From positions 52,437-116,436 of the forward strand of contig VCMS01000206.1 in the NCBI GenBank assembly GCA_022539475.1: 64,000 nucleotides of DNA. The letters are read 5' to 3'. The notes under the pieces are model-generated. The model was not told the DNA's origin and ran no database searches. It saw only the letters and a program-made list of their open reading frames with translations. A program made the translations under genes and the position numbers. This document shows, one piece after another, positions 3,308-32,201 of the stretch. This DNA comes from Gracilaria domingensis (taxonomy: Eukaryota; Rhodophyta; Florideophyceae; Gracilariales; Gracilariaceae). How positions within the stretch are numbered: the first letter of the stretch is position 1; each line of letters begins with the position of its first letter.

Positions 3308-3588
3308 GCGTCAGATAATGGCAATGGTACGGATCCAGGAACAACCGCAGCAACAGAATCTCAGAACCAAGCCCAAGAGACTTTACAGTCTGCCGAGGTT
3401 CAACTCTCCCCTGGCCAGGAGTTGGAAAGCAAAGAGCGCGAGATAATTGCTACCTACTTTAAAGCCTTTGGTAGTCAGGAATTTATGCTTCACCGAGCTC
3501 AAGGACTGCCGCTTTATGCAACCCAGAATGCGTTCGAAAGAGAACAGAAGTCATTCATGCGTACAGTTCGCGTCGTTCCTGTATCCAA

Positions 3589-3778
3589 TGTCAGTAGTAC
3601 TGCACATTAAGTGGCACCCATTTACATAGATTAGCACCCGTTTAAGCATCTGCTTCTTTCACTATTAAAGCAGTGCTGAGGAGAACCAGACACACAGTCT
3701 TGTTCTCCAACGCCTCACTACTCATTCGCTCTCACAGGTTATGGGCCCAGTACGCCTCACTACTCATTCGCTCTCACA
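3589..3778 (+). mobile_element. Mini-copia relic: 148-bp LTR, primer site, 27-bp LTR remnant
   Basis: A TGTCAG...CTCACA LTR spans 3589-3736. It is followed by the 14-base primer site GGTTATGGGCCCAG (3737-3750), one base, and then a second copy of the last 27 bp of the LTR (3752-3778). A perfect 5-bp target duplication TCCAA flanks it (3584-3588 and 3779-3783). It lies inside copia-1 coding sequence between integrase and reverse transcriptase and introduces the stop at 3608-3610. The insert plus one duplication is 195 bp, so the downstream frame is preserved. It is a different LTR family from copia-1 and copia-2 but uses the same iMet-half primer site. Confidence 0.85.
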
Positions 3779-8752: not shown

Positions 8753-11700
8753 CTACCACTCAATCTCGCACACGGGCCTCAAGTTGGCGTCGCAGAATAC
8801 GTTGGCACCATCGCTGGTGCGAATGAGACGGCACTCGAATGTGCCCAACCACATCGGCCCGCTCTCAGACCAACACCATGCCTCGTCTTCAGCCAAACTG
8901 CTGCCCCAAGTGACGTGCAAGGAGCTGACGGCGTGGTCGTCGGGCGCGAGCAGCGCGCCGACGCGCCGCCCGAGCTGCACGTCGCACAGCGCCATGCGGC
9001 GGCTGCCCAGCTGGCACAGCACGCGCGTGCCGTCGGCGTTGACGCCCACGCGGCGGACGCCTTCGCCCAGCTGGAGCGGCGCGCACACGCGCGCGCCGCT
9101 GCGCGCGTCGCACACGTGCAGCGCGCCATCAGCCGTGCCGAACGCCACGCGCGAGCCGTCGGCGCTCATCGCCACGCTGCCCACGTGCGCGGCGCGCTCC
9201 GCCATGCGCCGCGCCTCCGCCGGCGCGCGCTGCAGCCGCCACACCCACAGCGCGTACTCGAGAAGCGGCCTGCCCGCGTGGTGGTACGACGCGTACGCCA
9301 CGCGCGCGCCGTCGCCGCTGAACGCCACCCCGCCCGGCCAGCCGTCGCGCAGCCGGTGCTGCGCCACCTCCGCTCTGCTGTCCGCCTCCCACACGCGCAG
9401 CGTCCCGTCGAGCGATCCGGACGCCACTCGCCTCCCGTCGAAGCTCAGCGCAACGCACTCCACTCGGGCGCGTCCCGCCAGCGGCTGCCCCACCGCCTGC
9501 CCGCTCGCAGCGTCCCACACTTGCAGCGTTGCCCCCCCCGACGCGCAAACCACTCGCCTGCCATCGTCGCTGATCGCAACGCATTCCACCCCGACAATGT
9601 CACCGCCGCGAGGCTCAAACGGCCGACCTTCCCTTCCCACCTCCCATATCCGCAACGTCGAATCAGCTGTCCCACAAATCACCTCCGTTCCGTCGCTGTC
9701 AAACGCCACGCATGTGCAGGGATTCCTGGCCGTCAGATGGTGCTCCTCCATTTGCTCCCCGCTCTCCGCCTTCCATATTCGCACCGTTCCGTCCTCCTCC
9801 CCGGACGCCACCTGCTTTCCGTTCTCACTAAACCCCACGCACCGCACACAGCCAACGTCACCCATTTGAAGCTGTCCCACCGTCATTCCGCTCCCAACTT
9901 CCCGTATCCGCACCGTTCCTGTTCTTACACTTCCGGACACTTCCCCCGTCCCGCACACTACTCGCGTCCCGTCCTCGCTGAAAGCAACGCAGTACACACC
10001 ACCATCTTCGCAAGGCTGTGTTACTGCAATCAGCGGCTGTCCTACCGCCTCACCGCTTCCAACCTCCCATATCCGAACAGTTCCGTCCCCTGATCCAGAC
10101 ACCACTCGACTCCCGTCCCTACTCAACGCAACGCACCAAACTGCAGCGGTGTGGCCCTCCAGGGCTTGTCCCACCATCTCTCCGTTCTCAACATTCCATA
10201 TTCGAATAGTTCTGTCGGCTGACCCAGTTGCCACCCGAGTACCGTCATCGTTGAGCGTAACATCATAGATCGTGTTGTCGTGGGCCTTGAACGTTGTGCA
10301 TAGTAAGCACGTTTCTGCATCCCACACAAAAACTCTCCCACCCACATCCCCAACCGCAACGATTCTTAGGTTGGTAGATACTGCTGCCTTGAAAGCGCCC
10401 GCAACTTTTTCCACTTCCGTTTGAAACTTTCTTGTTTTCTGCAACCCGATCTTACGGTCATAAGACATCCAATATAAATCGAAGTCCAACCTGTTTTGCA
10501 GTACAGCGTAAACGTGATGACCCCGGACAAATGAACAAAGAACTCGAAACTCGTCTTCCAAATCTATCACCTCTTTCGAACCTTCATTTGCCTGTTGTAA
10601 CAATCCCGCCGACGCCTTGGCCCATGGCCTGGGAGCACATTCTTCAATCTTTGCAACAAAACTTTTCGTTCTTTCGCAAATCTGCGCGTGTCGTAGCAAT
10701 CTTCCATGCACTTGGAACCACGCTTCGCGTGTGTTGTGCACAACAAACGTATGACTCATCTGAGCCGCTTGGCGAACTGCCTCCAAATGAGTCATGTGGC
10801 TCCTTGTGTCAGAGTCTGTGCTGCACAAAGCTGATTTGCCCCACTCAATGTCCTCATTCACATAGAACATGCCGCTCTCTTGGAGGCGCATCACAACCCA
10901 GTTTGGTTGCGAAAGCAACCACAGTAGCTCTTCCAGGGAGCCGGATTCGTATAGCAGTCGACACAGATTGTCCAAGATGTAACTGTCATCTTCAAACCTC
11001 CACCACGCCCAACGAACTTCTCTTCTCGATTCCTTAGCATCATCAACATCATTGCCTTCAATCTCACGGTCTTCACTACCTCCACAACATATCATTGCAT
11101 GCTTCAATAGTCGTGTCAGTCTTGTCTCTCTTCGTCCGGAAATCGCCAGATCGGTTGACATTCGTCTATCGACCACAACTTCTAATTCCATTTCTCGAGC
11201 TCTTTCCTTGTAGTTTCCAATCAACGTCTTGAAACATTCCGTTCTCAATTGTTCCGACGTCCTATCAACGGCCAGGTCTAAAACAAGATCGTGAATCTCA
11301 ATGTACGTACGGCCTTCATCTTCCCTTCGAATTCGCACAACCGACACATCGTACAGCTTCTTGGCCCACTTCATCGTTTCTCTCAAGTCCTTTGCGCCCC
11401 ACAAACATTGCAACATCAACAAAGGAATGTCTTGCTTCTTCCGAACAATGCATAACTTCTCAAACTTTTCCTTAAACCCTCCCTCATTTCCCAACGCCTT
11501 CAACGAACTGTCCACGATCAGTCCCAGTTTCCCATGCCGGTCTTCATCAACTTCATTGATGGTATTGAATCCCTGCACGTAGTCGCTCCATGCGTTTTGA
11601 AAGTTTTCCAAACGCTGCTCCGAGTATTCGCGCACCGCACCTCCCGCAATACCAAGTGCTAGTGGAAGACCTCCACATTGCTCCAACACAACACTTAAGG

Positions 11701-12772
11701 CTGTCTCATTGTCTTGGCTAAGTTGTTGATCCCAAGCAAAACCAGCGTGAGTCATTAGCATACGTCGCGCCAATGCACCTTGGGGTTCCTTCTCTCTAAA
11801 CTCAATCACGCTCTCGGTATGTTGACACAAACACCGACTCCTTGTTGTGTAAACCATACGACTGCCGCCACTCAAAATAGTTTCTAGAGTAGCTAGTTCT
11901 TCCGAAGTGATATTATTGACCGGCCATACGTCGTCTACCAGCAACAGGCATTCGCGTTGGTTGAACCATGGCGCTACTGCACAGCACACTTCCTGCAGTG
12001 ATTTCATAGTTCGCAAGCTTCCGGCCAAAGTCTTGCCTCCTGTCAAGAGAACCACTTTTCTTATTTCTTGGATGATCGTGAACAACTTGGCCTCATTTCC
12101 AAGCTGCATGAACAGAATACCTCCCGGGAACTTCGTCTTCACTTCTTCTTCCCTGCACACTTGGCGAAGTGCACAGGTCTTGCCCGCCCCTCCGAGCCCA
12201 GATGCGATCACAGCAACGCTTCTGTTGCCCTGCTCCGATAGCACTGCCGCTTTTAGTCTACCTTCAGGCGAAGATTCTGATGCAAAGTCGAACGTTAAGC
12301 GGTCTGGATTCCTTGGAACATTATTCATCCCTTCTACATACACGTCGGGATCCACATGCGCTGGTGCATCCGGGATTTGTGCAGAAGGGCTGGGATTGAA
12401 ATCAAGTATCTCCTTGACGTTGCTCTCACATTCATCTAGTATCTGTTTCATTCTTTTCACACGATCGGAGGCCTTCGCATCTTCGATACTCTTGTGCCAA
12501 TGCTGCAGTTTGTTCTCAATCTCGCTGAGTTCTTCCGTGAATCCCTGAATTCTGACGTTCGAAATGAAATCAAGTTCTTCATTCTCTTGCAGATGCGTTA
12601 TGATCTGCACTGCCTGTTGATACTTTCGTTGCAACCGAACGAGGTGATCCTTGTTGTCAGCCACCAGATCCCGGCGCTCGTAGAGGGTGTTGATGACCTT
12701 CTCCACCTTCTCCAGCCCTTTGAGAAGGTCTCCAAACCTCGGAACAAGCCCTGGCAAAAGTGCTGCTGCCAT
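8753..12772 (-). CDS. Gene A: 4HB-like/NB-ARC/WD40 STAND ATPase (NLR/Apaf-1-like), 1,339 aa
   Basis: This is a predicted cytosolic STAND ATPase receptor. Numbering from the chosen start: residues 12-126 form an amphipathic helical region patterned like MLKL/HeLo-type four-helix bundles. NB-ARC has a P-loop GLGGAGKT (192-199), Walker B LLLVDDVW (276-283), the sensor-like GSRMVYTTRSR, CGGLPLAL (366-373) and IHDL (493-496) in place of MHD. An Apaf-1-like helical stretch follows (SYILDNLCRLLYESG...LSQPNW, about 597-627). From about 801 to the end there are 12 or more WD40 repeats ending in motifs such as TVRIWEVGSG, enough for two propellers. An upstream in-frame ATG at 12904 would add 44 residues. 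I chose 12772 because its product, MAAALLPG, aligns with the starts of C and D. By family analogy, ligand sensing by the WD40 end would drive oligomerisation. The frame has no introns and no defects. Confidence 0.85.
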   Translation of the reverse strand: MAAALLPGLVPRFGDLLKGLEKVEKVINTLYERRDLVADNKDHLVRLQRKYQQAVQIITHLQENEELDFISNVRIQGFTEELSEIENKLQHWHKSIEDAKASDRVKRMKQILDECESNVKEILDFNPSPSAQIPDAPAHVDPDVYVEGMNNVPRNPDRLTFDFASESSPEGRLKAAVLSEQGNRSVAVIASGLGGAGKTCALRQVCREEEVKTKFPGGILFMQLGNEAKLFTIIQEIRKVVLLTGGKTLAGSLRTMKSLQEVCCAVAPWFNQRECLLLVDDVWPVNNITSEELATLETILSGGSRMVYTTRSRCLCQHTESVIEFREKEPQGALARRMLMTHAGFAWDQQLSQDNETALSVVLEQCGGLPLALGIAGGAVREYSEQRLENFQNAWSDYVQGFNTINEVDEDRHGKLGLIVDSSLKALGNEGGFKEKFEKLCIVRKKQDIPLLMLQCLWGAKDLRETMKWAKKLYDVSVVRIRREDEGRTYIEIHDLVLDLAVDRTSEQLRTECFKTLIGNYKERAREMELEVVVDRRMSTDLAISGRRETRLTRLLKHAMICCGGSEDREIEGNDVDDAKESRREVRWAWWRFEDDSYILDNLCRLLYESGSLEELLWLLSQPNWVVMRLQESGMFYVNEDIEWGKSALCSTDSDTRSHMTHLEAVRQAAQMSHTFVVHNTREAWFQVHGRLLRHAQICERTKSFVAKIEECAPRPWAKASAGLLQQANEGSKEVIDLEDEFRVLCSFVRGHHVYAVLQNRLDFDLYWMSYDRKIGLQKTRKFQTEVEKVAGAFKAAVSTNLRIVAVGDVGGRVFVWDAETCLLCTTFKAHDNTIYDVTLNDDGTRVATGSADRTIRIWNVENGEMVGQALEGHTAAVWCVALSRDGSRVVSGSGDGTVRIWEVGSGEAVGQPLIAVTQPCEDGGVYCVAFSEDGTRVVCGTGEVSGSVRTGTVRIREVGSGMTVGQLQMGDVGCVRCVGFSENGKQVASGEEDGTVRIWKAESGEQMEEHHLTARNPCTCVAFDSDGTEVICGTADSTLRIWEVGREGRPFEPRGGDIVGVECVAISDDGRRVVCASGGATLQVWDAASGQAVGQPLAGRARVECVALSFDGRRVASGSLDGTLRVWEADSRAEVAQHRLRDGWPGGVAFSGDGARVAYASYHHAGRPLLEYALWVWRLQRAPAEARRMAERAAHVGSVAMSADGSRVAFGTADGALHVCDARSGARVCAPLQLGEGVRRVGVNADGTRVLCQLGSRRMALCDVQLGRRVGALLAPDDHAVSSLHVTWGSSLAEDEAWCWSESGPMWLGTFECRLIRTSDGANVFCDANLRPVCEIEW

Positions 12773-12957
12773 GTCTGTTGGGATACAGGATTGGGAGTAA
12801 GAAAGTGCCAAAAGTAGATGCAAATGATCGCGAGAAGCAAGAGCCGATGGACGTTTGCCAGGGATTGGCGACGGTATGTTGTGATGGGGAAGTTGTTGAA
12901 ACATTGACCAGCTTTGGTGCAGCGTGTGCGTGTACCAGTCGAGGAGTTGTCAACCAC

Positions 12958-13000
12958 TGCCAACTGTAGCGTCTGACACCAGGTGTCTCAAATTTGGTGT
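12958..13000 (-). promoter_or_regulatory. Conserved upstream block of gene A
   Basis: The block TGCCAACTGTA, CTGAC and TTGGTGTCGCGTG lies about 186 bp before the start codon. It recurs before B (19993-20035), C (26992-27026), D (32397-32434) and an orphan 5' flank (33550-33590), while surrounding sequence has diverged between C and A. This suggests a shared core promoter or 5' UTR element. The function is inferred. Confidence 0.4.
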
Positions 13001-13254
13001 CGCGTGTGTCGATGACTGCCATCAATGCGTTTCTGGGTGAAAAGTGAACACAAGACAGCGTGAGAGGCCATGTTTGTGTTGCAACACGCAACGCAAGCAC
13101 GCAAATCTTGCGTTCGAAATAGGGGGCTGAAAAAAGGTCGGAATCTATTGGAGCAAACTGTAGGAGTAAGGTGTTACTCAAGACAGTCAGGCGACCTTCT
13201 GATAGGAGTGTTTCAGGTGTCGGACGTGCAGAATAGACCTACCTCACGGACACA

Positions 13255-13735
13255 GTGAGCGGAGAGGGATCTGGTTTCTCTTTCGTAGCATCCCGTGGGA
13301 ATGCAGAACTGGTTGCCTCCGGGTCGGAAGAGGAACGCTCAGAGTGCCGAACACAAGGCGCCGGGACCCCAAAGCGCCGTGCTTCCCATGTGCGACGTGG
13401 TCACTCGCGTGGCTACGTGGCGCACGTGCGAATGAGGGCCACCACACTCGAGTGGCGCGTGCGGCACGCGCGCAGCGGCGCCGGCGCCGCGCGGCGCTGC
13501 GTCGCGCCGTGTGCACGGGCGGCGGCCCGCGCGCCGTGTCGGGCGCAGACGCCGGCGAGGCGCGCGCGTGCCGCTCGCGCTGCCACGAATCATGCCACGT
13601 GGAGGATCGAGCGATCGAGGCGGGGCGTCGCGCGCGGCCGTGGCGGCGCTGGCCTTCTTCGCGCGGCGCGCGTGTGCTGTGCACGGTGCACACGCGTGCC
13701 ACCAACGTGCGTGGCGCTGCGTGCGCTGACGGCGA
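13255..13735 (+). pseudogene. Decayed WD40 gene fragment, plus strand, upstream of gene A
   Basis: The plus-strand frames give NAELVASGSEEE, RHARSGAG and RAVSGADAGEARAC, recognisable as pieces of WD40 repeats (compare ELIATGSEDG, VWDARSG, VVSGSADGTVRIW). They are spread over two frames with no intact repeat. It is very GC- and CpG-rich and points away from gene A. Related relics lie before genes C and D. Long minus-strand open frames here are by-products of base composition. Confidence 0.5.
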
Positions 13736-13859
13736 GTGCGTGGGGGCGAGAAAATGGTACAGCGTGTTGCTCGCGCTCAGTCCGCGCAGCTGCGCAGGCT
13801 GCGTTTGGCTTCCTTTTAGGCAACTGATAGCAAACACCATCCACCCTTTCTCTTGAGCA

Positions 13860-14930
13860 GTTACTGCTAAGCGTCAAATATGTATCCATGAGTTTAAAGT
13901 GTTCTTCTCATCGCCTTTGCTGCATTACACAAACAGTTTTATTCATTCCATACCACCAAACGGTTCCAAAGCACACGTTTCCTCGTTGTCTCTAAGAGAC
14001 GTTGCATGCGCTCCAGCTGCTCTGATCTGTCGCATTCAGACTTATATCTGCCCTACAATCTAATCATTTACTTCGAAGAAAGTAGTCTTTATAATCTGAA
14101 CATTTCCACTAAATTTAGATACTGTTTTTCCACATTTAGAGATGATTTGTGTTTATCGGCATTTAATTTGTTTGCATTTACGCTAAACTGAAAAAGTACA
14201 TCACAGTTTCACATAAAAAACAATACATTTCTCAATTTAAGTGGCATTGTACACTGTTGCGTCGAGTTGAGATCTGGACCATGTTCAAGACGTTTCAGTG
14301 AATCATAGCTAGGTAAACAGAAAACATCCCATATCTATGCGAAACAAATTTTGAATCTTCTTGTAATTGTTTTAGCTTAAACGCTATTTTGGTTCTGTTC
14401 TAGCGATTATCCAATTAAAATTTTATCTTAATGTTTCAAAAGGATAACATTTTTTTTTTGACTTACTTAGAGTTATCGATGGCTTGAACGAGCTTTTTAC
14501 ACTAAATATCCAACCTTCTGCTTCCTTTTTTTGGAGAATCTTAAAATACGAACGGCATCACCGGGTCGTATTCGTGACTACATTTTGGAGCTGTTCCTGA
14601 ACTCACGGTCATCAAGAAAAACTGTAAACTAAGCATTCATATACATCGTTTCATTCGTTCTTAGTGGTTTTAGTCTTCAAATGAAAAACATCACAGAAAA
14701 GAATTTTGAGAGATCACTACAAGTACAAGGTGCGACGGATGTCTGGCCGGAATCTTTTGTACAGTGGCTAATGCACAAGAATCATAGTCACACCTATTCG
14801 TTCAAAATTAAGACCCGTTCACATCAAATTGATCAAAGTTCATATTCAGATCTAGCACATTCTTCGAATCTCTTTTACTGGCTTTCTGATTACCCGAGAG
14901 CGAATTGGCCTCACCTACCAAGTTGCTGTT
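13860..14930. other. AT-rich spacer between genes A and B
   Basis: About 1.07 kb of AT-rich sequence sharply different from the GC-rich blocks on both sides. No gene, RNA or repeat is supported. The 85-codon open frame at 14681-14938 has no recognisable features. The stretch recurs at 20895-21966 as part of the tandem duplication. Confidence 0.4.
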
Positions 14931-15009
14931 GTAAGTGAGTGCGACGATCATTCTTCAAAACTCTGATGAGATTTGCTTCTGAATGTTTTTTGCACGGCGG
15001 AGGTAGTCT

Positions 15010-15185
15010 AAGCAGGTTACGTCCCCAGTTTTCCCGCCAGTACTTTGGCAAGCAGCGCGTGACCGCCCATCGTCGCTGCCTGAAAAGCCGTTCTGCCGAG
15101 GTTGCTGGAGCTGTTCACGTCAAGAGCCGCCCGACGGCAGCGCTTCTACCACCGCCAGGTGTCCCTGACCTGACATCGTGCATCC
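15010..15185 (-). pseudogene. Ankyrin-repeat relic
   Basis: Read on the minus strand the segment gives GHLAVVEAL, then after a one-base shift DVNSSSNLGRTAFQAATMGG and HALLAKVLAG. This is the consensus shape of two ankyrin repeats (G-H-x2-V-V-x2-L-L, A-D-V-N, G-x-T-A-L-x-x-A). Only about 55 residues survive and they are frameshifted. An identical copy lies at 22046-22221. Confidence 0.55.
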
Positions 15186-15400
15186 GCTGCAGCTTCTGCC
15201 ACACGCCATGGGTATCTATGTACCGGAATGGAGATGCAGCGGCGGACGTCCTCAAGTGCGGCATGTGCTGTCGACGAGGCTTTCCGCGCGCGTTGGCGCA
15301 AGCGCCATGGCGCGCATGACGGCATGGAGACACGACAACCTGCAATCGGCTGCAGATTTGGCTACGTTGCGACCTGCCCATTGCGACAAGTGGATGCCCC
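15185..15400 (+). pseudogene. Relic of the 5' end of the E1/E2 membrane-protein family
   Basis: The DNA aligns with the start of gene E1 (45700-45850). Shared landmarks are CCACACGCCATGG, TCCTCAAGT followed by CATGTGCTG, and GCGCCATGGC...GCATGGAGACACG. The reading frame is destroyed. A copy lies at 22221-22436 and a second related relic at 27635-27830. Confidence 0.6.
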
Positions 15401-15770
15401 CGCTGCGCACCGCGAGCGGTGCGACGTGCGCGTGTCATGCGCCGACGCCGCTACCGCGGAGGCGCGGCGCCCTTTTTGTTTGGGCTGGGCGCGCAGCGTG
15501 TCGCCAGCGGCGGCCACTCGCCGCGTGTCCCGCACGCGCACGGCGCCGCCGCGCGAGCGCGCATGCCGTGCGCGCGCGCTGTCGCGCACGTCAGCAACGT
15601 GTCGCGCGCGCCATCTCTGTCAAGCGCCAGTTGCGTGCAACGCGCGGACGCCGTCGCGCTCTCCCGTGTTGCTCGCCGACTTGTTATGGTGCGCCTGCGA
15701 CGCCAACTGCGGTGGTGCACGGCGTTCGGCGTGAGCAAGAAGCGCGCCGACAGCTGCATTATTCGGTTGC
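15400..15770 (-). pseudogene. Decayed WD40 fragment just downstream of gene B
   Basis: Minus-strand frames show LALDRDGARDTLLTCATARAHG and GGAVRVRDTRRVAAAGD, typical WD40 strand fragments in shifted frames. Strong GC and CpG enrichment. It directly follows the gene B stop codon, and a related segment follows gene D (27845-28170). This suggests a tail of a lost paralogue or an extra set of repeats. Confidence 0.45.
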
Positions 15771-15784
15771 TTTGTAAATGTTAG

Positions 15785-18700
15785 CTACCACTCTATCTCG
15801 CACACGGGCCGGAAGTTGGCGTCGCGGAATACGCTGGCACTATCGCTCGTGCGAATGAGACCGCACTCGAATATGCCCAACCACATCGGCCCGCACTCAG
15901 ACCAGCACCATGCTTCCCATTCAGGCAAACGGCTGCCCCAAGTGACGTGCATGGAGCTGACGGCGTGGTCGTCGGGAGCGAGCAGCGCGCCGACGCGCCG
16001 CCCGAGCTGCACGTCGCACAGCGCCATGCGGCGGCTGCCCAACTGGCACAGCACGCGCGTGCCGTCGCCGTTGGCGCCCACGCGGTGCAATGCTTCGCCC
16101 AACTGGAGCGGCGCGCACACGCGCGCGCCGCTGCGCGCGTCGCACACGTGCAGCGCGCCGCCTCGCGTGCCGAACGCCACGCGTGAGCCGTCGGCGCTCA
16201 TCGCCACGCACCACACGTTGAAGGCGCGCTCCGCCATGCGCTGCGCCTCCGCCGCCGCGCTCTGCAGCCGCCACACGCATAGCGAGTACTCCAAACGCGG
16301 CCTGCCCGCGTGGCCATACGACGCGTACGCCACGCGCGTGCCGTCGCCGCTGAACGCCACCCTGCCCGGCGCACCATCGCGCAGTCGGTGCTGCGCCACC
16401 TCCGCTCCGCTCTCCGCGTCCCACACGCGCAGCGTCCCGTCGATCGACCCGGACGCCACTCGCCTCCCGTCGCAGCTCAGCGCAACGCTCAGCACCAGAC
16501 CAGTGTGCCCCACCAGCGGCCGTCCCACCGCCTGGCCGCTCGCAGCGTCCCACACTTGCAGCGTTGCGTCCCCCGACCCGCACACCACTCGCTTCCCATC
16601 ACCGCTGATCGCAACGCAATGCACCCCGACAATGTCATCGCCGCGCGGCTCAAACGGCCGCCCTCTCCTTCCCACCTCCCATATCCGCAACGCCGAATCA
16701 GCTGTCCCGCAAATCACCTCCGTCCCGTCGCTGCTGAACGCCACGCATCTGCATGCACTCTTTGCCGTCAGATGGTGCTCCTCCACCCGCTCCCCGCTTT
16801 CCGCGTTCCATATCCGTACCGTCCCGTCCTGCTCCCCGGACGCCACCTGCTTTCCGTCCTCACTTAACGCGACAAACTCCACACAACCAATGTCACCTAT
16901 TCGAGGCTGTCCCACCATCATTCCGCTCTCGACTTCCCATATCTGCACCCTTCCTGTTCTTACACTTCCCGACACTTCCTCCGTCCCGCAAACTACTCGC
17001 TGCCCGTCGCCGCTGAATGCAACGCAGTACACGCGACCACTTGCCTCGCACGGCTTTCGTACCATCAGCGGCTGTCCTATCGCCTCACCGCTCCCAACCT
17101 CCCATATCCGCACAGTTCCGTCCGCTGATCCGGAAACCACTCGACTCCCGTCCCCGCTCAACGCAACGCACAAAACTTCAGCGGTGTGGCCCTCCAGAGC
17201 TGTTCCTACCATCTCTCCGTTCCCAACATTCCATATACGAATAGTGCTGTCCGCCGACCCAGTCGCCACTCGACTGCCGTTATTGTTAACCGCAACACCC
17301 CAGATCGTAGCCTCGTGTGCCTTGAACGTCCTGCACAGAGAGCAAGTTTCTACGTACCATACAAACACTTTTCCGCTCACATCACCAACCGCAACGTTTT
17401 TCAGGTCGGCAGATATGGCTGCCTGGTAAACGTCAGCAACGTTTTCCCCTTCCGTTTGAAACTTTCTTCTCTTCTCGAACCCGATCTTACGGTCATACCA
17501 CATCCAATACACATGTAAATCTACACGCGATTGCAGAACAGCGTAAACGTGATGACCCCGGACGAATGAACAAAGAATTCGAAACGAGGCTTCCAAATCA
17601 ATCACCTCGTTCAACCCTTCATTTGCCTGTTGTAACAATCCCGTCGACGCCTTGGCCCAGGGCCTGGGAGCACATTCTTCAATCTTTGCAACAAAACTTC
17701 TCGTTCTTTCACAAATCTGCGCGTGTCGTAGCAATCGTCCATGCACTTGGAACCACGCTTCACGTGTGTTTCGCACAACGAACGTATGACTCATCTGAGC
17801 CGCTTGGCGAATCGTCTCCAAATGTGTCATGTGGCTCCTTGTGTCAGAGTCTGTGCTGCACAAAGCTGATTTGCCCCACTCAATGTCCTCATTCACATAG
17901 AACATGCCGCTCTCTTGGAGGCGCATCACAACCCAGTTTGGTTGCGAAAGCAACCACAGTAGCTCTTCCAGGGAGCCGGATTCGTATAGCAGTCGACACA
18001 GATTGTCCAAGATGTAACTGTCATCTTCAAACCTCCACCACGCCCAACGAACTTCTCTTCTCGATTCCTTAGCATCATCAACATCATTGCCTTCAATCTC
18101 ACGGTCTTCACTACCTCCACAACATATCATTGCATGCTTCAATAGTCGTGTCAGTCTTGTCTCTCTTCGTCCGGAAATCGCCAGATCGGTTGACATTCGT
18201 CTATCGACCACAACTTCTAATTCCATTTCTCGAGCTCTTTCCTTGTAGTTTCCAATCAACGTCTTGAAACATTCCGTTCTCAATTGTTCCGACGTCCTAT
18301 CAACGGCCAGGTCTAAAACAAGATCGTGAATCTCAATGTACGTACGGCCTTCATCTTCCCTTCGAATTCGCACAACCGACACATCGTACAGCTTCTTGGC
18401 CCACTTCATCGTTTCTCTCAAGTCCTTTGCGCCCCACAAACATTGCAACATCAACAAAGGAATGTCTTGCTTCTTCCGAACAATGCATAACTTCTCAAAC
18501 TTTTCCTTAAACCCTCCCTCATTTCCCAACGCCTTCAACGAACTGTCCACGATCAGTCCCAGTTTCCCATGCCGGTCTTCATCAACTTCATTGATGGTAT
18601 TGAATCCCTGCACGTAGTCGCTCCATGCGTTTTGAAAGTTTTCCAAACGCTGCTCCGAGTATTCGCGCACCGCACCTCCCGCAATACCAAGTGCTAGTGG

Positions 18701-19807
18701 AAGACCTCCACATTGCTCCAACACAACACTTAAGGCTGTCTCATTGTCTTGGCTAAGTTGTTGATCCCAAGCAAAACCAGCGTGAGTCATTAGCATACGT
18801 CGCGCCAATGCACCTTGGGGTTCCTTCTCTCTAAACTCAATCACGCTCTCGGTATGTTGACACAAACACCGACTCCTTGTTGTGTAAACCATACGACTGC
18901 CGCCACTCAAAATAGTTTCTAGAGTAGCTAGTTCTTCCGAAGTGATATTATTGACCGGCCATACGTCGTCTACCAGCAACAGGCATTCGCGTTGGTTGAA
19001 CCATGGCGCTACTGCACAGCACACTTCCTGCAGTGATTTCATAGTTCGCAAGCTTCCGGCCAAAGTCTTGCCTCCTGTCAAGAGAACCACTTTTCTTATT
19101 TCTTGGATGATCGTGAACAACTTGGCCTCATTTCCAAGCTGCATGAACAGAATACCTCCCGGGAACTTCGTCTTCACTTCTTCTTCCCTGCACACTTGGC
19201 GAAGTGCACAGGTCTTGCCCGCCCCTCCGAGCCCAGATGCGATCACAGCAACGCTTCTGTTGCCCTGCTCCGATAGCACTGCCGCTTTTAGTCTACCTTC
19301 AGGCGAAGATTCTGATGCAAAGTCGAACGTTAAGCGGTCTGGATTCCTTGGAACATTATTCATCCCTTCTACATACACGTCGGGATCCACATGCGCTGGT
19401 GCATCCGGGATTTGTGCAGAAGGGCTGGGATTGAAATCAAGTATCTCCTTGACGTTGCTCTCACATTCATCTAGTATCTGTTTCATTCTTTTCACACGAT
19501 CGGAGGCCTTCGCATCTTCGATACTCTTGTGCCAATGCTGCAGTTTGTTCTCAATCTCGCTGAGTTCTTCCGTGAATCCCTGAATTCTGACGTTCGAAAT
19601 GAAATCAAGTTCTTCATTCTCTTGCAGATGCGTTATGATCTGCACTGCCTGTTGATACTTTCGTTGCAACCGAACGAGGTGATCCTTGTTGTCAGCCACC
19701 AGATCCCGGCGCTCGTAGAGGGTGTTGATGACCTTCTCCACCTTCTCCAGCCCTTTGAGAAGGTCTCCAAACCTCGGAACAAGCCCTGGCAAAAGTGCTG
19801 CTGCCAT
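15785..19807 (-). CDS. Gene B: chimeric 4HB-like/NB-ARC/WD40 STAND ATPase, 1,340 aa
   Basis: The architecture is that of gene A, with four-helix-like N-terminus, NB-ARC (GLGGAGKT, LLLVDDVW, GGLPLAL, IHDL), helical linker and WD40 array. Its N-terminal 660 or so residues are identical to gene A, while the rest matches gene C, including 15785-17825 against 22821-24861 with one synonymous difference. The switch occurs within codons for S-H-M-T-H-L-E, in the helical linker about 130 residues before the first WD40 repeat. So B pairs A's ATPase with C's sensor. The frame is open throughout. The junction lies C-terminal to C's premature stop, which B therefore lacks. The start at 19807 is chosen as for gene A; an in-frame ATG at 19939 is also present. 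Confidence 0.85.
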   Translation of the reverse strand: MAAALLPGLVPRFGDLLKGLEKVEKVINTLYERRDLVADNKDHLVRLQRKYQQAVQIITHLQENEELDFISNVRIQGFTEELSEIENKLQHWHKSIEDAKASDRVKRMKQILDECESNVKEILDFNPSPSAQIPDAPAHVDPDVYVEGMNNVPRNPDRLTFDFASESSPEGRLKAAVLSEQGNRSVAVIASGLGGAGKTCALRQVCREEEVKTKFPGGILFMQLGNEAKLFTIIQEIRKVVLLTGGKTLAGSLRTMKSLQEVCCAVAPWFNQRECLLLVDDVWPVNNITSEELATLETILSGGSRMVYTTRSRCLCQHTESVIEFREKEPQGALARRMLMTHAGFAWDQQLSQDNETALSVVLEQCGGLPLALGIAGGAVREYSEQRLENFQNAWSDYVQGFNTINEVDEDRHGKLGLIVDSSLKALGNEGGFKEKFEKLCIVRKKQDIPLLMLQCLWGAKDLRETMKWAKKLYDVSVVRIRREDEGRTYIEIHDLVLDLAVDRTSEQLRTECFKTLIGNYKERAREMELEVVVDRRMSTDLAISGRRETRLTRLLKHAMICCGGSEDREIEGNDVDDAKESRREVRWAWWRFEDDSYILDNLCRLLYESGSLEELLWLLSQPNWVVMRLQESGMFYVNEDIEWGKSALCSTDSDTRSHMTHLETIRQAAQMSHTFVVRNTREAWFQVHGRLLRHAQICERTRSFVAKIEECAPRPWAKASTGLLQQANEGLNEVIDLEASFRILCSFVRGHHVYAVLQSRVDLHVYWMWYDRKIGFEKRRKFQTEGENVADVYQAAISADLKNVAVGDVSGKVFVWYVETCSLCRTFKAHEATIWGVAVNNNGSRVATGSADSTIRIWNVGNGEMVGTALEGHTAEVLCVALSGDGSRVVSGSADGTVRIWEVGSGEAIGQPLMVRKPCEASGRVYCVAFSGDGQRVVCGTEEVSGSVRTGRVQIWEVESGMMVGQPRIGDIGCVEFVALSEDGKQVASGEQDGTVRIWNAESGERVEEHHLTAKSACRCVAFSSDGTEVICGTADSALRIWEVGRRGRPFEPRGDDIVGVHCVAISGDGKRVVCGSGDATLQVWDAASGQAVGRPLVGHTGLVLSVALSCDGRRVASGSIDGTLRVWDAESGAEVAQHRLRDGAPGRVAFSGDGTRVAYASYGHAGRPRLEYSLCVWRLQSAAAEAQRMAERAFNVWCVAMSADGSRVAFGTRGGALHVCDARSGARVCAPLQLGEALHRVGANGDGTRVLCQLGSRRMALCDVQLGRRVGALLAPDDHAVSSMHVTWGSRLPEWEAWCWSECGPMWLGIFECGLIRTSDSASVFRDANFRPVCEIEW

Positions 19808-19992
19808 GTCTGTTGGGATACAGGATTGGGAGTAAGAAAGTGCCAAAAGTAGATGCAAATGATCGCGAGAAGCAAGAGCCGATGGACGTTTGCCAGGGAT
19901 TGGCGACGGTATGTTGTGATGGGGAAGTTGTTGAAACATTGACCAGCTTTGGTGCAGCGTGTGCGTGTACCAGTCGAGGAGTTGTCAACCAC

Positions 19993-20035
19993 TGCCAACT
20001 GTAGCGTCTGACACCAGGTGTCTCAAATTTGGTGT
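19993..20035 (-). promoter_or_regulatory. Conserved upstream block of gene B
   Basis: Duplicate of the block at 12958-13000, about 186 bp before the gene B start. It is inherited with the tandem duplication, so gene B should share gene A's promoter. Confidence 0.4.
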
Positions 20036-20289
20036 CGCGTGTGTCGATGACTGCCATCAATGCGTTTCTGGGTGAAAAGTGAACACAAGACAGCGTGAGA
20101 GGCCATGTTTGTGTTGCAACACGCAACGCAAGCACGCAAATCTTGCGTTCGAAATAGGGGGCTGAAAAAAGGTCGGAATCTATTGGAGCAAACTGTAGGA
20201 GTAAGGTGTTACTCAAGACAGTCAGGCGACCTTCTGATAGGAGTGTTTCAGGTGTCGGACGTGCAGAATAGACCTACCTCACGGACACA

Positions 20290-20770
20290 GTGAGCGGAGA
20301 GGGATCTGGTTTCTCTTTCGTAGCATCCCGTGGGAATGCAGAACTGGTTGCCTCCGGGTCGGAAGAGGAACGCTCAGAGTGCCGAACACAAGGCGCCGGG
20401 ACCCCAAAGCGCCGTGCTTCCCATGTGCGACGTGGTCACTCGCGTGGCTACGTGGCGCACGTGCGAATGAGGGCCACCACACTCGAGTGGCGCGTGCGGC
20501 ACGCGCGCAGCGGCGCCGGCGCCGCGCGGCGCTGCGTCGCGCCGTGTGCACGGGCGGCGGCCCGCGCGCCGTGTCGGGCGCAGACGCCGGCGAGGCGCGC
20601 GCGTGCCGCTCGCGCTGCCACGAATCATGCCACGTGGAGGATCGAGCGATCGAGGCGGGGCGTCGCGCGCGGCCGTGGCGGCGCTGGCCTTCTTCGCGCG
20701 GCGCGCGTGTGCTGTGCACGGTGCACACGCGTGCCACCAACGTGCGTGGCGCTGCGTGCGCTGACGGCGA
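20290..20770 (+). pseudogene. Decayed WD40 fragment upstream of gene B
   Basis: Exact duplicate of the relic at 13255-13735, carried by the tandem duplication. Confidence 0.5.
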
Positions 20771-20894
20771 GTGCGTGGGGGCGAGAAAATGGTACAGCGT
20801 GTTGCTCGCGCTCAGTCCGCGCAGCTGCGCAGGCTGCGTTTGGCTTCCTTTTAGGCAACTGATAGCAAACACCATCCACCCTTTCTCTTGAGCA

Positions 20895-21966
20895 GTTACT
20901 GCTAAGCGTCAAATATGTATCCATGAGTTTAAAGTGTTCTTCTCATCGCCTTTGCTGCATTACACAAACAGTTTTATTCATTCCATACCACCAAACGGTT
21001 CCAAAGCACACGTTTCCTCGTTGTCTCTAAGAGACGTTGCATGCGCTCCAGCTGCTCTGATCTGTCGCATTCAGACTTATATCTGCCCTACAATCTAATC
21101 ATTTACTTCGAAGAAAGTAGTCTTTATAATCTGAACATTTCCACTAAATTTAGATACTGTTTTTCCACATTTAGAGATGATTTGTGTTTATCGGCATTTA
21201 ATTTGTTTGCATTTACGCTAAACTGAAAAAGTACATCACAGTTTCACATAAAAAACAATACATTTCTCAATTTAAGTGGCATTGTACACTGTTGCGTCGA
21301 GTTGAGATCTGGACCATGTTCAAGACGTTTCAGTGAATCATAGCTAGGTAAACAGAAAACATCCCATATCTATGCGAAACAAATTTTGAATCTTCTTGTA
21401 ATTGTTTTAGCTTAAACGCTATTTTTGGTTCTGTTCTAGCGATTATCCAATTAAAATTTTATCTTAATGTTTCAAAAGGATAACATTTTTTTTTTGACTT
21501 ACTTAGAGTTATCGATGGCTTGAACGAGCTTTTTACACTAAATATCCAACCTTCTGCTTCCTTTTTTTGGAGAATCTTAAAATACGAACGGCATCACCGG
21601 GTCGTATTCGTGACTACATTTTGGAGCTGTTCCTGAACTCACGGTCATCAAGAAAAACTGTAAACTAAGCATTCATATACATCGTTTCATTCGTTCTTAG
21701 TGGTTTTAGTCTTCAAATGAAAAACATCACAGAAAAGAATTTTGAGAGATCACTACAAGTACAAGGTGCGACGGATGTCTGGCCGGAATCTTTTGTACAG
21801 TGGCTAATGCACAAGAATCATAGTCACACCTATTCGTTCAAAATTAAGACCCGTTCACATCAAATTGATCAAAGTTCATATTCAGATCTAGCACATTCTT
21901 CGAATCTCTTTTACTGGCTTTCTGATTACCCGAGAGCGAATTGGCCTCACCTACCAAGTTGCTGTT
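20895..21966. other. AT-rich spacer between genes B and C
   Basis: Duplicate of 13860-14930 with one extra T in a homopolymer near 21426. No gene is supported. Confidence 0.4.
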
Positions 21967-22045
21967 GTAAGTGAGTGCGACGATCATTCTTCAAAACTCT
22001 GATGAGATTTGCTTCTGAATGTTTTTTGCACGGCGGAGGTAGTCT

Positions 22046-22221
22046 AAGCAGGTTACGTCCCCAGTTTTCCCGCCAGTACTTTGGCAAGCAGCGCGTGACC
22101 GCCCATCGTCGCTGCCTGAAAAGCCGTTCTGCCGAGGTTGCTGGAGCTGTTCACGTCAAGAGCCGCCCGACGGCAGCGCTTCTACCACCGCCAGGTGTCC
22201 CTGACCTGACATCGTGCATCC
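22046..22221 (-). pseudogene. Ankyrin-repeat relic, second copy
   Basis: Duplicate of 15010-15185, with the same frameshifted ankyrin pattern. Confidence 0.55.
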
Positions 22222-22436
22222 GCTGCAGCTTCTGCCACACGCCATGGGTATCTATGTACCGGAATGGAGATGCAGCGGCGGACGTCCTCAAGTGCGGCAT
22301 GTGCTGTCGACGAGGCTTTCCGCGCGCGTTGGCGCAAGCGCCATGGCGCGCATGACGGCATGGAGACACGACAACCTGCAATCGGCTGCAGATTTGGCTA
22401 CGTTGCGACCTGCCCATTGCGACAAGTGGATGCCCC
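22221..22436 (+). pseudogene. Relic of E1/E2 family 5' end, second copy
   Basis: Duplicate of 15185-15400, carried by the tandem duplication. Confidence 0.55.
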
Positions 22437-22806
22437 CGCTGCGCACCGCGAGCGGTGCGACGTGCGCGTGTCATGCGCCGACGCCGCTACCGCGGAGGCG
22501 CGGCGCCCTTTTTGTTTGGGCTGGGCGCGCAGCGTGTCGCCAGCGGCGGCCACTCGCCGCGTGTCCCGCACGCGCACGGCGCCGCCGCGCGAGCGCGCAT
22601 GCCGTGCGCGCGCGCTGTCGCGCACGTCAGCAACGTGTCGCGCGCGCCATCTCTGTCAAGCGCCAGTTGCGTGCAACGCGCGGACGCCGTCGCGCTCTCC
22701 CGTGTTGCTCGCCGACTTGTTATGGTGCGCCTGCGACGCCAACTGCGGTGGTGCACGGCGTTCGGCGTGAGCAAGAAGCGCGCCGACAGCTGCATTATTC
22801 GGTTGC
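22436..22806 (-). pseudogene. Decayed WD40 fragment downstream of gene C
   Basis: Duplicate of 15400-15770. It follows the gene C stop codon directly. Confidence 0.45.
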
Positions 22807-22820
22807 TTTGTAAATGTTAG

Positions 22821-25800
22821 CTACCACTCTATCTCGCACACGGGCCGGAAGTTGGCGTCGCGGAATACGCTGGCACTATCGCTCGTGCGAATGAGACCGC
22901 ACTCGAATATGCCCAACCACATCGGCCCGCACTCAGACCAGCACCATGCTTCCCATTCAGGCAAACGGCTGCCCCAAGTGACGTGCATGGAGCTGACGGC
23001 GTGGTCGTCGGGAGCGAGCAGCGCGCCGACGCGCCGCCCGAGCTGCACGTCGCACAGCGCCATGCGGCGGCTGCCCAACTGGCACAGCACGCGCGTGCCG
23101 TCGCCGTTGGCGCCCACGCGGTGCAATGCTTCGCCCAACTGGAGCGGCGCGCACACGCGCGCGCCGCTGCGCGCGTCGCACACGTGCAGCGCGCCGCCTC
23201 GCGTGCCGAACGCCACGCGTGAGCCGTCGGCGCTCATCGCCACGCACCACACGTTGAAGGCGCGCTCCGCCATGCGCTGCGCCTCCGCCGCCGCGCTCTG
23301 CAGCCGCCACACGCACAGCGAGTACTCCAAACGCGGCCTGCCCGCGTGGCCATACGACGCGTACGCCACGCGCGTGCCGTCGCCGCTGAACGCCACCCTG
23401 CCCGGCGCACCATCGCGCAGTCGGTGCTGCGCCACCTCCGCTCCGCTCTCCGCGTCCCACACGCGCAGCGTCCCGTCGATCGACCCGGACGCCACTCGCC
23501 TCCCGTCGCAGCTCAGCGCAACGCTCAGCACCAGACCAGTGTGCCCCACCAGCGGCCGTCCCACCGCCTGGCCGCTCGCAGCGTCCCACACTTGCAGCGT
23601 TGCGTCCCCCGACCCGCACACCACTCGCTTCCCATCACCGCTGATCGCAACGCAATGCACCCCGACAATGTCATCGCCGCGCGGCTCAAACGGCCGCCCT
23701 CTCCTTCCCACCTCCCATATCCGCAACGCCGAATCAGCTGTCCCGCAAATCACCTCCGTCCCGTCGCTGCTGAACGCCACGCATCTGCATGCACTCTTTG
23801 CCGTCAGATGGTGCTCCTCCACCCGCTCCCCGCTTTCCGCGTTCCATATCCGTACCGTCCCGTCCTGCTCCCCGGACGCCACCTGCTTTCCGTCCTCACT
23901 TAACGCGACAAACTCCACACAACCAATGTCACCTATTCGAGGCTGTCCCACCATCATTCCGCTCTCGACTTCCCATATCTGCACCCTTCCTGTTCTTACA
24001 CTTCCCGACACTTCCTCCGTCCCGCAAACTACTCGCTGCCCGTCGCCGCTGAATGCAACGCAGTACACGCGACCACTTGCCTCGCACGGCTTTCGTACCA
24101 TCAGCGGCTGTCCTATCGCCTCACCGCTCCCAACCTCCCATATCCGCACAGTTCCGTCCGCTGATCCGGAAACCACTCGACTCCCGTCCCCGCTCAACGC
24201 AACGCACAAAACTTCAGCGGTGTGGCCCTCCAGAGCTGTTCCTACCATCTCTCCGTTCCCAACATTCCATATACGAATAGTGCTGTCCGCCGACCCAGTC
24301 GCCACTCGACTGCCGTTATTGTTAACCGCAACACCCCAGATCGTAGCCTCGTGTGCCTTGAACGTCCTGCACAGAGAGCAAGTTTCTACGTACCATACAA
24401 ACACTTTTCCGCTCACATCACCAACCGCAACGTTTTTCAGGTCGGCAGATATGGCTGCCTGGTAAACGTCAGCAACGTTTTCCCCTTCCGTTTGAAACTT
24501 TCTTCTCTTCTCGAACCCGATCTTACGGTCATACCACATCCAATACACATGTAAATCTACACGCGATTGCAGAACAGCGTAAACGTGATGACCCCGGACG
24601 AATGAACAAAGAATTCGAAACGAGGCTTCCAAATCAATCACCTCGTTCAACCCTTCATTTGCCTGTTGTAACAATCCCGTCGACGCCTTGGCCCAGGGCC
24701 TGGGAGCACATTCTTCAATCTTTGCAACAAAACTTCTCGTTCTTTCACAAATCTGCGCGTGTCGTAGCAATCGTCCATGCACTTGGAACCACGCTTCACG
24801 TGTGTTTCGCACAACGAACGTATGACTCATCTGAGCCGCTTGGCGAATCGTCTCCAAATGTGTCATGTGGCTACTTGTGTCCGAGTGTGTCTCGCGCAAA
24901 GCTGATTTGCCCCACTCAATGTCCTCATTCACATAGAACATGCCGCTCTCTTGGAGGCGCATCACAATTCAGTTTGGTTGCGAAAGCAACCACAGTAACT
25001 CTTCCAGGCAACCGGATTCATACAGCAGTCGACACAGATTGTCCAAGATGTAACTGTCATCTTCAAACCTCCACCACGCCCAACGAACTTCTCTTCTCGA
25101 TGCCTTCGCAGCATCGACATCAACTTTGTCTTCAATTTCACAGTCTTCACTACCTGCACCACAACATATCATTGCATGTCTCAATAGTCGTGTCAGTCTT
25201 GTCTCTCTTCGTTCGAAAATCTCCAGATCAGTTGACATTCGTCTATCGACCACAACTTCCAATTCCATTTCTCGAGCTCTTTCCTTGTAGTTCTCAATCA
25301 ATGTCTTGAAACATTCCGTTTTGAATTCTTCCGACGTCCGATCGACGGCGAGGTCCAAAACAAGATCGTGAATCTCAATATAGGTACGGCCTTCATCTTC
25401 CCTTCGAATTCGCACAACTGATACATCGTACAGCTTCTTGGCCCACTTCATCGTTTCTCTCAAGTCCATTGCGCCCCATAAACATTGCAACATCAACAAA
25501 GGAATGTCTTGCTTCTTTCGAACAATGCATAACTTCTCAAACTTTTCCTTAAACCCTCCCTCATTTCCCAACGTCTTCAACGAACTGTCCACGATCAGTC
25601 CCAATTTCCCATGCCGGTCTGCATCAACTTCATTGATGGTGTCAAATCCCTGCACGTAGTCGCTCCATGCGTTTTGAATGTTCTCCAAACGCTGCTCCGA
25701 GTATTCGCGCACCGCAGCTCCCGCAATACCGAGTGCTAGGGGAAGACCTCCACATTGCTCCAACACAACACCTAAGGCTGTCTCATTGTCTTGGCTAAGT

Positions 25801-26837
25801 TGTTGATCCCAAGCAAAACCAGCGTGAGTCATTAGCATACGTCGCGCCAATGCACCTTGGGGTTCCTTCTCTCTAAACTCAATCACGCTCTCGGTATGTT
25901 GACACAAACTCCGACTCCTTGTCGTGAAGATCAGACGACTGCTGCCACTCAAAATTGTTTCTAGAGTAGCTATTTCTTCGGATGTGATATTATTGACCGG
26001 CCAAATGTCGTCTACCAGCAACAGGCATTCGCGTTGGTTGAACCACGGCGCTACTGCACAGCATACTTCCTGCACAGATTTCATAGTTCGCAAGCTTCCC
26101 GCCAAAGTCTTGCCGCCTGTCAAGAGAACCAGTTTGATTATTTCCTGGATGATCGTGAACAACGTGGCCTCATTTCCAAGCTGCATGAACAGAATACCTC
26201 CCGGGAACTTCGTCTTCACTTCTTCTTCTCTGCACACTTGGCAAAGTGCACAGGTCTTGCCCGCCCCTCCCAGCCCGGATGCGATCACAGCTACGCTTTT
26301 GCTGCTCTGCTCCGATAGCACTGCCGCCTTTAGTTTACCCTCAGGCGAGGATTGTGATGCAAAGTCGAACGTTAGGCGGTCTGGATTCCTTGGAACATTA
26401 TTCATCCCCTCCACATACGCATCGAGACCCAAATCCGCTGGAGCATTCGGGACTTGTGAAGAAGTGCTGGGATTGAAATTGAGTATCTCGTTCACGTTGC
26501 TCTCACATTCATCCAGTATCTTCTTCATTCTTCTCACTCGCTGCGGAGCCCACGCATCTTGGATACTCTTATGCCAGTCTTGCAATTGTTTCTCGACCTC
26601 GCTGAGTTCCGCTGTGAATCCCTCAAGTTTGACCCTCGAAATGAAATCCAGTTCTTCCCGCTCTTTTAGATGCGTTATGATCTGCACCGCCTGGCGATAC
26701 TTACGTTGCACGCGTCGGAGGTGGTGTTTGTTGTCCGCCACCAGATCCCTACGTTCGTAGATGCTGTTAATGACCTTCTCTACCATGCCCAGCGCTGCAA
26801 GAAGGTCTCCCGATGATGGTAAAAGAGCTGACGCCAT
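22821..26837 (-). pseudogene. Gene C: 4HB-like/NB-ARC/WD40 gene with one internal stop
   Basis: A full-length paralogue of gene A (1,338 codons plus one stop in frame) starting MASALLPSSGD. All NB-ARC motifs are present: GLGGAGKT, LLLVDDIW, GGLPLAL and IHDL. At 24969-24971 the Trp codon of LSQPNW (intact in A and B) is TGA, so the product would end after 622 residues, just past the Apaf-1-like helical stretch and before the WD40 array. Everything downstream stays in frame to 22821, so the break is a single point change. Either C is a young pseudogene or it makes a truncated helical/NB-ARC protein with no sensor. Its WD40 part is the donor for gene B. Confidence 0.85.
24969..24971 (-). other. 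Premature TGA in gene C (TGG in A and B)
   Basis: The codon sits between Asn of QPN and Ile/Val of the next helix. Genes A and B read TGG here. The following codons resume the conserved MRLQESGMFYVNED without a frame change. Confidence 0.85.
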
Positions 26838-31100: not shown

Positions 31101-32201
31101 TAGTGGAAGACCTCCACATTGCTCCAGCACAACACTTAAGGCTGTCTCATTCTGCTGGCTAAGCTGCTGATCCCAAGGAAAACCAGCATGAGTCATTAGC
31201 ATACGTCGTGCTAATGGACCTTGGGGTTCCTTCTCTCTAAACTCAATCACGCTCTCGGTATGTTGACACAAACGCCGACTCCTTGTGGTGTAAACCATAC
31301 GACTGCCGCCACTCAAAATAGTTTCTAGAGTAGCTATTTCTTCCGAAGTGATATTATTGACCGGCCATATGTCGTCTACCAGCAACAAGCATTCGCGTTG
31401 GTTGAACCACGGAGCTACTGCACAGCATACTTCCTGCACAGATTTCATCGTTCGCAAACGTCCCGCTAAATTGTTGCCTCCTGTCAAGAGAACCAGTTTG
31501 ATTATTTCCTGGATGATCGTGAACAACGTGGCCTCATTTCCAAGCTGCATGAATAGAATACCTCCAGGGAACTTCCTCTTCACTTCTTCTTCTCTGCATA
31601 CTTGGCGAAGTGCGCAGGTCTTGCCCGCCCCTCCGAGCCCACGTGCGATCACAGCCACGCTTTTGCAGCTCTGATCGGATAATACTGCTGCCTTCAGCTC
31701 ACTCTCTGGCGAGGATTCTGATGCAAAGTCGAACGTTAAGCGGTCTGGATTCCTTGGAACATTATTCATCCCCTCTACATACGCATCGGGACCCACATTC
31801 TCTAATGCATTCGGCTCTTGTGAAGAAGTGCTGGGTTTGAAATCAAGTATCTCCTTTACATTACTCTCACACTAATCTAGTATCTGCTTCATTCTTTTCA
31901 CGCGGTCGGAGGCCTTCGCATCTTCGATACTCTTGTGCCAATGCTGCAGCTTTTTCTCAATCTCGCTGAGTTCTTCTGTGAATCCCTCAAGTTTGACGTT
32001 CGAAATGAAATCAAGTTCTTCATGCTCTTCCAGATGCGTTATGATCTGCACTGCCTGCTGATACTTTCGTTGCAACCGAACGAGGTGATCCTTGTTGTCA
32101 GTCACCAGATCCTTGCGCTCGAAGATACTGTTGATGACCTTCTGCAACATCTCCAGCCCTTTGAGAAGGTCCCCAAACTTCGGAATAATTGCTGATGCCA
32201 T
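28200..32201 (-). pseudogene. Gene D: 4HB-like/NB-ARC/WD40 gene with two internal stops
   Basis: A full-length paralogue (1,334 codons in one frame) starting MASAIIPKFGD. A TAG at 31872-31874 replaces the Glu of ILDECES after about 109 residues, still in the helical N-terminal region. A second TAG at 29223-29225 replaces a WD40 Trp (VRIW). Between them the NB-ARC is complete (P-loop GLGGAGKT, LLLVDDIW, GGLPLAL, IHDL). The N-terminus resembles gene A while the linker (ALRETHSDTSSHMTHLE) and much of the WD40 array resemble C, so D looks like an older mosaic. It is a likely pseudogene unless the stops are bypassed. Confidence 0.85.

Follow-up and report, generated by a model that had tools for sequence, protein, structure and literature searches.

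A tandem array of NB-ARC-WD40 genes

The 64,000-nucleotide window analyzed here (positions 52437-116436 of contig 206, VCMS01000206.1, from one assembly of the red alga Gracilaria domingensis with a size of 77.9 Mb) carries four tandem minus-strand genes, A, B, C and D, all of which encode proteins with an NB-ARC ATPase domain and WD40 repeats. One of these, gene B, is a chimera of A's NB-ARC half and C's WD40 half with a single switch point, and it lies between its two parents (Table 1). In keeping with a red algal source, ten of 12 phycobilisome-domain matches in the assembly are on contig C680 (179.8 kb), and a phycocyanin beta frame has close matches in chains 5y6p and 2bv8, from Griffithsia and Gracilaria. 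The domain content that an earlier note on this DNA had ascribed to the genes is recovered with Pfam profiles, gene A scoring 58.3 bits for NB-ARC (cut-off 23.5) and 179.6 bits for WD40 (cut-off 27).

Table 1. Genes, duplicated units and associated features of the array (coordinates are those of the window)
Feature	Coordinates	Strand	Length	Description
Gene A	8753..12904	-		N-terminal region, NB-ARC, winged helix, linker, WD40; open, 1383 codons
Gene B (chimera)	15785..19939	-		residues 1-708 as in A, 705-1384 as in C; open, 1384 codons
Gene C	22821..26837	-		donor of B's WD40 half; single internal in-frame stop
TGA in C	24969..24971	-		internal; on the NB-ARC side, at a distance of about 100 bp to the joint
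Gene D	28200..32201	-		fourth paralog; N-terminus and upstream region A-like, WD40 C-like; two internal in-frame stops
Internal stops of D	29223-29225, 31872-31874	-		in-frame
Unit 1	10791..17825		7035 bp	N-terminal/NB-ARC half of A, spacer, B's WD40 half
Unit 2	17826..24861		7036 bp	N-terminal/NB-ARC half of B, spacer copy, C's WD40 half
Joint in B	17826..17836		11 bp	common to A and C; left side C-like, right side A-like; B codons 702-705
Spacer copy 1	12905..15784			upstream of A, downstream of B
Spacer copy 2	19940..22820			supplies B with A's upstream region

Gene B joins one half of A to one half of C

The chimera was recognized from two adjoining units of about 7 kb, which the earlier note had described as nearly identical with two differences. 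Indeed, the only differences are a substitution (16280 versus 23316) and a 1-bp indel in a homopolymeric T-run (near 14387-14390 and 21423-21426). The substitution is synonymous, and the base found in B is private to it among the eight genes aligned. The part of the B protein shared with C matches it exactly, with a single synonymous base difference between the two genes there. When the sites informative between A and C are considered, all 443 of them fit a single switch, with B being A-like through position 2103 of the coding sequence and C-like from position 2115. In a maximum chi-square test over coding positions 169-4150, from which gapped columns and sites with B matching neither parent were removed, none of 500 permutations matched this fit. 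The six bases that had been quoted on the two sides of the joint (10790, 17825, 24861, 10802, 17837 and 24873) are all correct, and an alignment checked for B matching one parent on both sides of the joint displays a switch of parent instead. The continuous frame of 1340 codons proposed for B is recovered when counting starts from the in-frame methionine that aligns with C's start. Likewise, the TGA is the only break in C and lies on the side that B took from A. B thereby combines the features of a chimeric NLR (nucleotide-binding leucine-rich repeat) gene, namely clustered parental paralogs, one breakpoint and parts identical to each parent.

The duplication is recent at the sequence level, as had been claimed: the two differences in 7 kb compare with synonymous divergence (dS) between A and C of 0.13-0.57 depending on the segment, and of about 0.17 in the NB-ARC part. 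Searches of the genome recovered two full-length matches to the spacer, both of 100% identity after rounding, with no third copy among the scored matches. A 1-kb stretch across the joint has one 100% match and a next best of 96%; its further relatives are found on contigs C177 (86%) and C171 (fragments).

Mosaics and broken members in the gene family

The genome contains 88 NB-ARC matches. Among nine close members of the family that were compared, three are open (A, B and G74, i.e., L052) and six are broken. The latter include C, D, E52a (L035) and F52b (L024) with 1, 2, 3 and 1 internal stops, respectively, H39 (L029), in which a 104-bp deletion causes a frameshift towards the end of the WD40 part, and I191 (L023), which is disrupted after coding position 1302. 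As its alignment breaks down after that position, I191 was excluded from the codon counts, while B was excluded from the family selection counts as a duplicate of A and C.

Gene D is an older mosaic with the same polarity as B: in the N-terminus its dS is 0.18 to A and 0.64 to C, and in WD40 codons 831-1170 it is 0.28 to A and 0.09 to C. E52a is another older mosaic; the 5' ends of D and E52a are 97-99% alike despite their location on separate contigs, and the kinship changes near coding positions 500-600. Seven single-breakpoint tests of D, E52a, F52b, H39 and C against other members each went beyond all 500 of 500 permutations, which ignore uneven rates along the gene. Given that D and E52a are older mosaics and that six of the nine members are broken, B is the newest case of a recurrent exchange.

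The four members with internal stops share a further pattern: they carry seven such stops in total, yet none has a frameshift after coding position 169, and their private changes in the NB half look constrained (nonsynonymous to synonymous 4:9 in C, 2:12 in D, 6:9 in E52a and 5:11 in F52b). This combination may reflect recent stops, refreshing by conversion, or stops that are tolerated. Mutation resembling repeat-induced point mutation (RIP) was considered as a source of the stops and not adopted, as the preference for a CpA context is inconsistent (7/14 in C, 9/23 in D and 6/27 in E52a, with a background of 591/2193); it may still apply to C. C-to-T/G-to-A changes outnumber the reverse among private changes in D (23 versus 7) and E52a (27 versus 12) and are balanced in C (14 versus 13).

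Outside the window, contig C28 (272687-298307) holds four NB-ARC matches, each within its own frame of 808 aa; the spacing among the first three is about 6236 bp, and this is probably another tandem array. Elsewhere, the NB-ARC copies L026 and L027, as well as L027 and L031, are 99.7% alike over 2438 bp, with L031 being on the same contig, C522, as L027. These copies may be recent duplicates, haplotigs or residual assembly error.

The NB-ARC switch and the N-terminal region

The NB-ARC half of A retrieves eight solved sequences at E <=0.01 (2.6e-6 to 5.8e-4), with Sr35/CNL9 first and Roq1 among them; in sequence, the switch part resembles such plant resistance proteins. In B we recognize what we take to be the P-loop at residue 236, Walker B at 320, GLPLA at 411 and an MHD-like motif at 535. 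With a domain over the curated cut-off as well as Walker motifs, the ATPase has the properties of an NB-ARC-type STAND (signal transduction ATPases with numerous domains) protein. No NACHT domain was found when A's NB-ARC half (10790-12334) was scanned against Pfam at E up to 5, and the same scan gave only NB-ARC, nSTAND_NTPase5 and Dark_WHD. The N-terminal region has no Pfam match over the cut-off in either A or C. It shows weak matches to many helical families, the best being Exonuc_VII_L (0.0043) and SesA (0.0059) in A and PUB2_N (0.007) and MLKL_N (0.015) in C; against solved structures the best E is only 0.13. On our reading, the region is probably helical. A search with models of anti-phage defence returned one match, PDLC02919, to WD40 residues 838-951, which was taken as uninformative. 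B most likely encodes a working STAND receptor. By analogy with transcripts from Pyropia, and by that alone, genes of the A/B type may have an immune role.

Diversification of the WD40 face

Across 11 pairs of genes, the ratio of nonsynonymous to synonymous divergence (dN/dS) is 0.19-0.29 in the NB-ARC/winged-helix part, and 0.37-1.13 in two WD40 segments. With repeat positions counted from the S of the SxDG motif, the most variable are -8, -7, -5 and +11. At these positions, 23 of 39 sites distinguish A from B, compared with 37 of the 249 remaining repeat sites.

A separate set, -7, -5, +11 and +13, was fixed before the count from codons 7, 9, 25 and 27 of the Podospora NWD genes (PMC1805685, used here and below in part). 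The mapping from Podospora is our own, and the A-B protein alignment had already been seen when the set was fixed; the loop assignments in the part of PMC1805685 consulted afterwards agree with it. This set accounts for 66 extra residue types, whereas random sets average 25.5 and reach such a value in 2 of 1000 cases. In two other subfamilies, just 32 and 74 of 23751 four-position sets are equally variable. For the same set, dN over the dS of the whole WD40 part is 1.95 (bootstrap 1.51-2.53) in seven genes of the window's subfamily and 1.64 (1.22-2.21) in A, C and G74 only; it reaches 4.64 (3.20-6.81) in the subfamily L034/L040/L049 and 2.23 (1.45-3.17) in L020/L021/L022/L038. With local dS, the ratios in these last two are 2.3 and 1.8. 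The set -8, -7, -5 and +11, which was picked after the variability count was seen, yields 2.30, 5.19 and 2.87 over whole-WD40 dS in the three subfamilies, the window's being the first, and 3.0 and 2.6 with local dS in the two others.

The pair L037/L043 displays a weaker excess (0.71 versus 0.38 per site, a level reached by 78 of 23751 position sets). L045/L048 has almost no differences, as the longest frame of L048 (711 aa) lacks the WD40 half. The repeat model was built from the repeats of A, B and L052 and applied with a very loose threshold; the repeats detected in other subfamilies are therefore partial, and some may be chance matches.

Thus, positions on the predicted top face of the WD40 propeller appear to carry the signature of a recognition surface, which is strongest in two other subfamilies. 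The mapped equivalents of codons 7, 9, 25 and 27 show Podospora-type diversification as a set, and the hypervariable positions are, on our mapping, mostly those selected in the Podospora HET/NWD receptors. The earlier note's view of the WD40 half as the sensor gains support from these positions. Since the recognition positions diversify and it is this half that was swapped, the exchange would change what an A-type switch responds to.

Origin of gene B

We consider it likely that a misaligned exchange between A and C made B, with an A-type switch and C's diversifying sensor in an open frame. As both breakpoints coincide at one aligned base of two paralogs, homology-directed exchange is favored. 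Within this reading, we infer three points: the molecule exists in the living alga, the stop in C predates the exchange, and B is expressed and functions as a receptor. According to the earlier note, the WD40 sensor of a broken gene was joined to an intact ATPase. The chimera, its breakpoints and its open frame stand; that C was broken first is an argument from time.

Several observations weigh against this reading. B is known here from the sequence of one assembly, and the view that the stop in C preceded the exchange derives from the time available and is not proven. As for the sensor, position +13 alone is not hypervariable in the window's subfamily. With local dS, the ratio in that subfamily is only 1.1 (0.365/0.328) for the set fixed beforehand and 1.0 (0.431/0.437) for the set picked afterwards. 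Further, when the subfamily L020/L021/L022/L038 is reduced to L020/L021/L022 by leaving out L038, the interval spans 1 (0.79-3.44). Finally, A and C are 90-95% identical in 150-bp windows around the joint, which is within the overlap error of noisy long reads, and other near-identical NB-ARC copies in this assembly differ mostly by gaps: L026 (C74) and L027 (on the 21-kb contig C522, which holds two such copies) show 1 mismatch and 5 gap openings in 2438 bp.

These last two points would fit an assembly artefact, in which an overlap of noisy long reads merged A with C and the loop of A's NB-ARC half, spacer and C's WD40 half was written twice, B being nonexistent. The homopolymer indel, which is one of only two differences between the units, and the fragmentation of the assembly into 680 contigs are also in keeping with it. 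However, the switch occurs at an 11-bp identity that sits close to A/C identical runs of 71 and 78 bp and yet outside them, with a clean A or C consensus on either side. Because the switch lies in 11 bp of identity, an assembler using a k-mer graph with k >11 would make no join at this point. Moreover, B carries a private base, and on balance we regard an artefact as unlikely.

An alternative to which we give similarly little credence accepts the duplication as real and has C's stop arise later, once B had made C redundant; there would then be no rescue, which requires C to have been broken before the exchange. C has one internal in-frame stop, at a codon position where seven of seven other members compared are open. 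Its private changes in the NB half, which comprise this stop in addition to the counts given above, compare with about 3.6 nonsynonymous to 1 synonymous expected without constraint. The NB half of C therefore still looks constrained, implying that C remained functional until late and broke late, as a late stop would have it. Against this, one substitution between the units, set beside a dS between A and C of about 0.17, means that only a tiny fraction of the time for which C has existed falls after the duplication. On the assumption that stops form at an even rate, C's stop more probably predates the duplication, which is an argument from the time available and not a proof. A replication-based or end-joining tandem duplication via the 11-bp microhomology, without a crossover, is quite improbable: the exact shared stretch at the joint is indeed only 11 bp, but both breakpoints fall on the same aligned base of paralogs of about 4 kb, a coincidence that random end joining would rarely hit.

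Other elements in the window

In the spacers, none of the four open reading frames tested reaches a Pfam cut-off and no further gene was seen; within the window, no known RNA genes or tRNAs were found. Beyond the array, 34762-44925 probably holds retrotransposons, one nested in the other. The outer pair of direct repeats (at least 300 bp, 100% identical, at 34762 and 44626) is accompanied by an RVT_2 frame (42578-44191), and the inner pair (220 bp, 99%, at 37475 and 42244) surrounds frames with RVT_1, integrase and chromodomain matches. Two neighbouring frames of 631 and 565 aa follow at 45571-49556; they are 95% alike over 300 bp at a spacing of 2147 bp and 73% alike in a second stretch, and have no Pfam match. 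A frame that matches the Plavaka transposase lies at 53369-55105 (68.7 bits; cut-off 26.3).

Proposed mechanism and comparison with known systems

In the exchange between A and C that we favor, the two would have started as neighbouring tandem NB-ARC-WD40 genes. A misaligned, homology-directed exchange at one aligned position, i.e., an unequal crossover between sister chromatids or homologues, would then have made a second copy of everything between A's NB-ARC half and C's WD40 half, both halves and the spacer included, and placed B between A and C. B would have received its upstream region, N-terminal region, ATPase switch and winged helix from A, and its WD40 sensor and 3' end from C, whose sensor would thereby have been put into an open frame. 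In the predicted B protein, the WD40 face would bind a ligand, upon which the NB-ARC domain would exchange nucleotide, open and oligomerize, with the N-terminal region signaling. More speculatively, copies with broken N-terminal or ATPase halves might constitute a reserve of recognition faces in a diversifying intracellular receptor repertoire, to which the 88 NB-ARC matches would belong. Homeologous exchange within and between clusters might join their WD40 halves to open switches, with B as the newest product and D as an older one. Such a repertoire would be a convergent counterpart of the fungal NWD allorecognition genes and the plant NLR clusters, in a lineage for which the papers covered here showed no comparable system.

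The comparisons that follow draw on portions of the cited papers. Among the open-licence literature, covered mostly by titles and the openings of abstracts, we saw no report that NB-ARC-WD40 genes of red algae form chimeras or undergo diversifying selection. In Pyropia yezoensis, transcripts of three NB-ARC+WD40 genes increase by a factor of more than 1.5 in the course of red rot disease (PMC6928737). They are likened to the genes studied here by their red algal architecture and not by sequence relationship, and the part of that paper used describes neither chimeras nor selection. The Ulva APAF1_C/WD40 gene and its rhodophyte relatives similarly attest NB-ARC and winged-helix proteins in algae, including red algae, in a study that, in the portion used, treats domain content and phylogeny, and not recombination (PMC8891106). 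The WD40 signature provides red algae with candidate recognition receptors for which surface positions can be named, and so bears on whether the variability of NLR-like sensing arose independently in plants, fungi and red algae.

In Podospora anserina, the NWD/HNWD genes, including het-d and het-e, have WD40 codons 7, 9, 25 and 27 under selection (PMC1805685). They resemble the present genes in coupling a STAND ATPase to WD40 repeats (PMC1805685, PMC4986451), in the diversification of positions on top of the propeller (7, 9 and 25, 27 there; -7, -5 and +11 here), and in exchange among members, with the WD40 repeats of broken members being largely free of stops. They differ in having NACHT in place of NB-ARC; further, it is nearly identical repeat units that are exchanged there, in a fungus that also has RIP, whereas whole halves are exchanged here.

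The closest parallel to B is the maize Rp1-D21, an autoactive chimeric NLR derived from Rp1-dp2 and Rp1-D (PMC4342346). In both cases, intragenic recombination between tandem paralogs more than 90% identical joins the N-terminal part of one to the C-terminal part of the other, and B is best read as a similar product, arising by homology-directed unequal exchange of tandem NB-ARC-WD40 paralogs. However, Rp1 proteins contain leucine-rich repeats and Rp1-D21 shows autoactivity, whereas here there is a WD40 sensor, in a red alga, traced in sequence only, and the break in one parent lies in the part that did not enter the chimera. If real, B would be a receptor so recent that both parents still adjoin it almost unchanged, and would illustrate concretely how new candidate immune receptors could arise in a seaweed. 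The locus would allow a direct test of whether the switch and sensor of different paralogs cooperate or misfire as in Rp1-D21.

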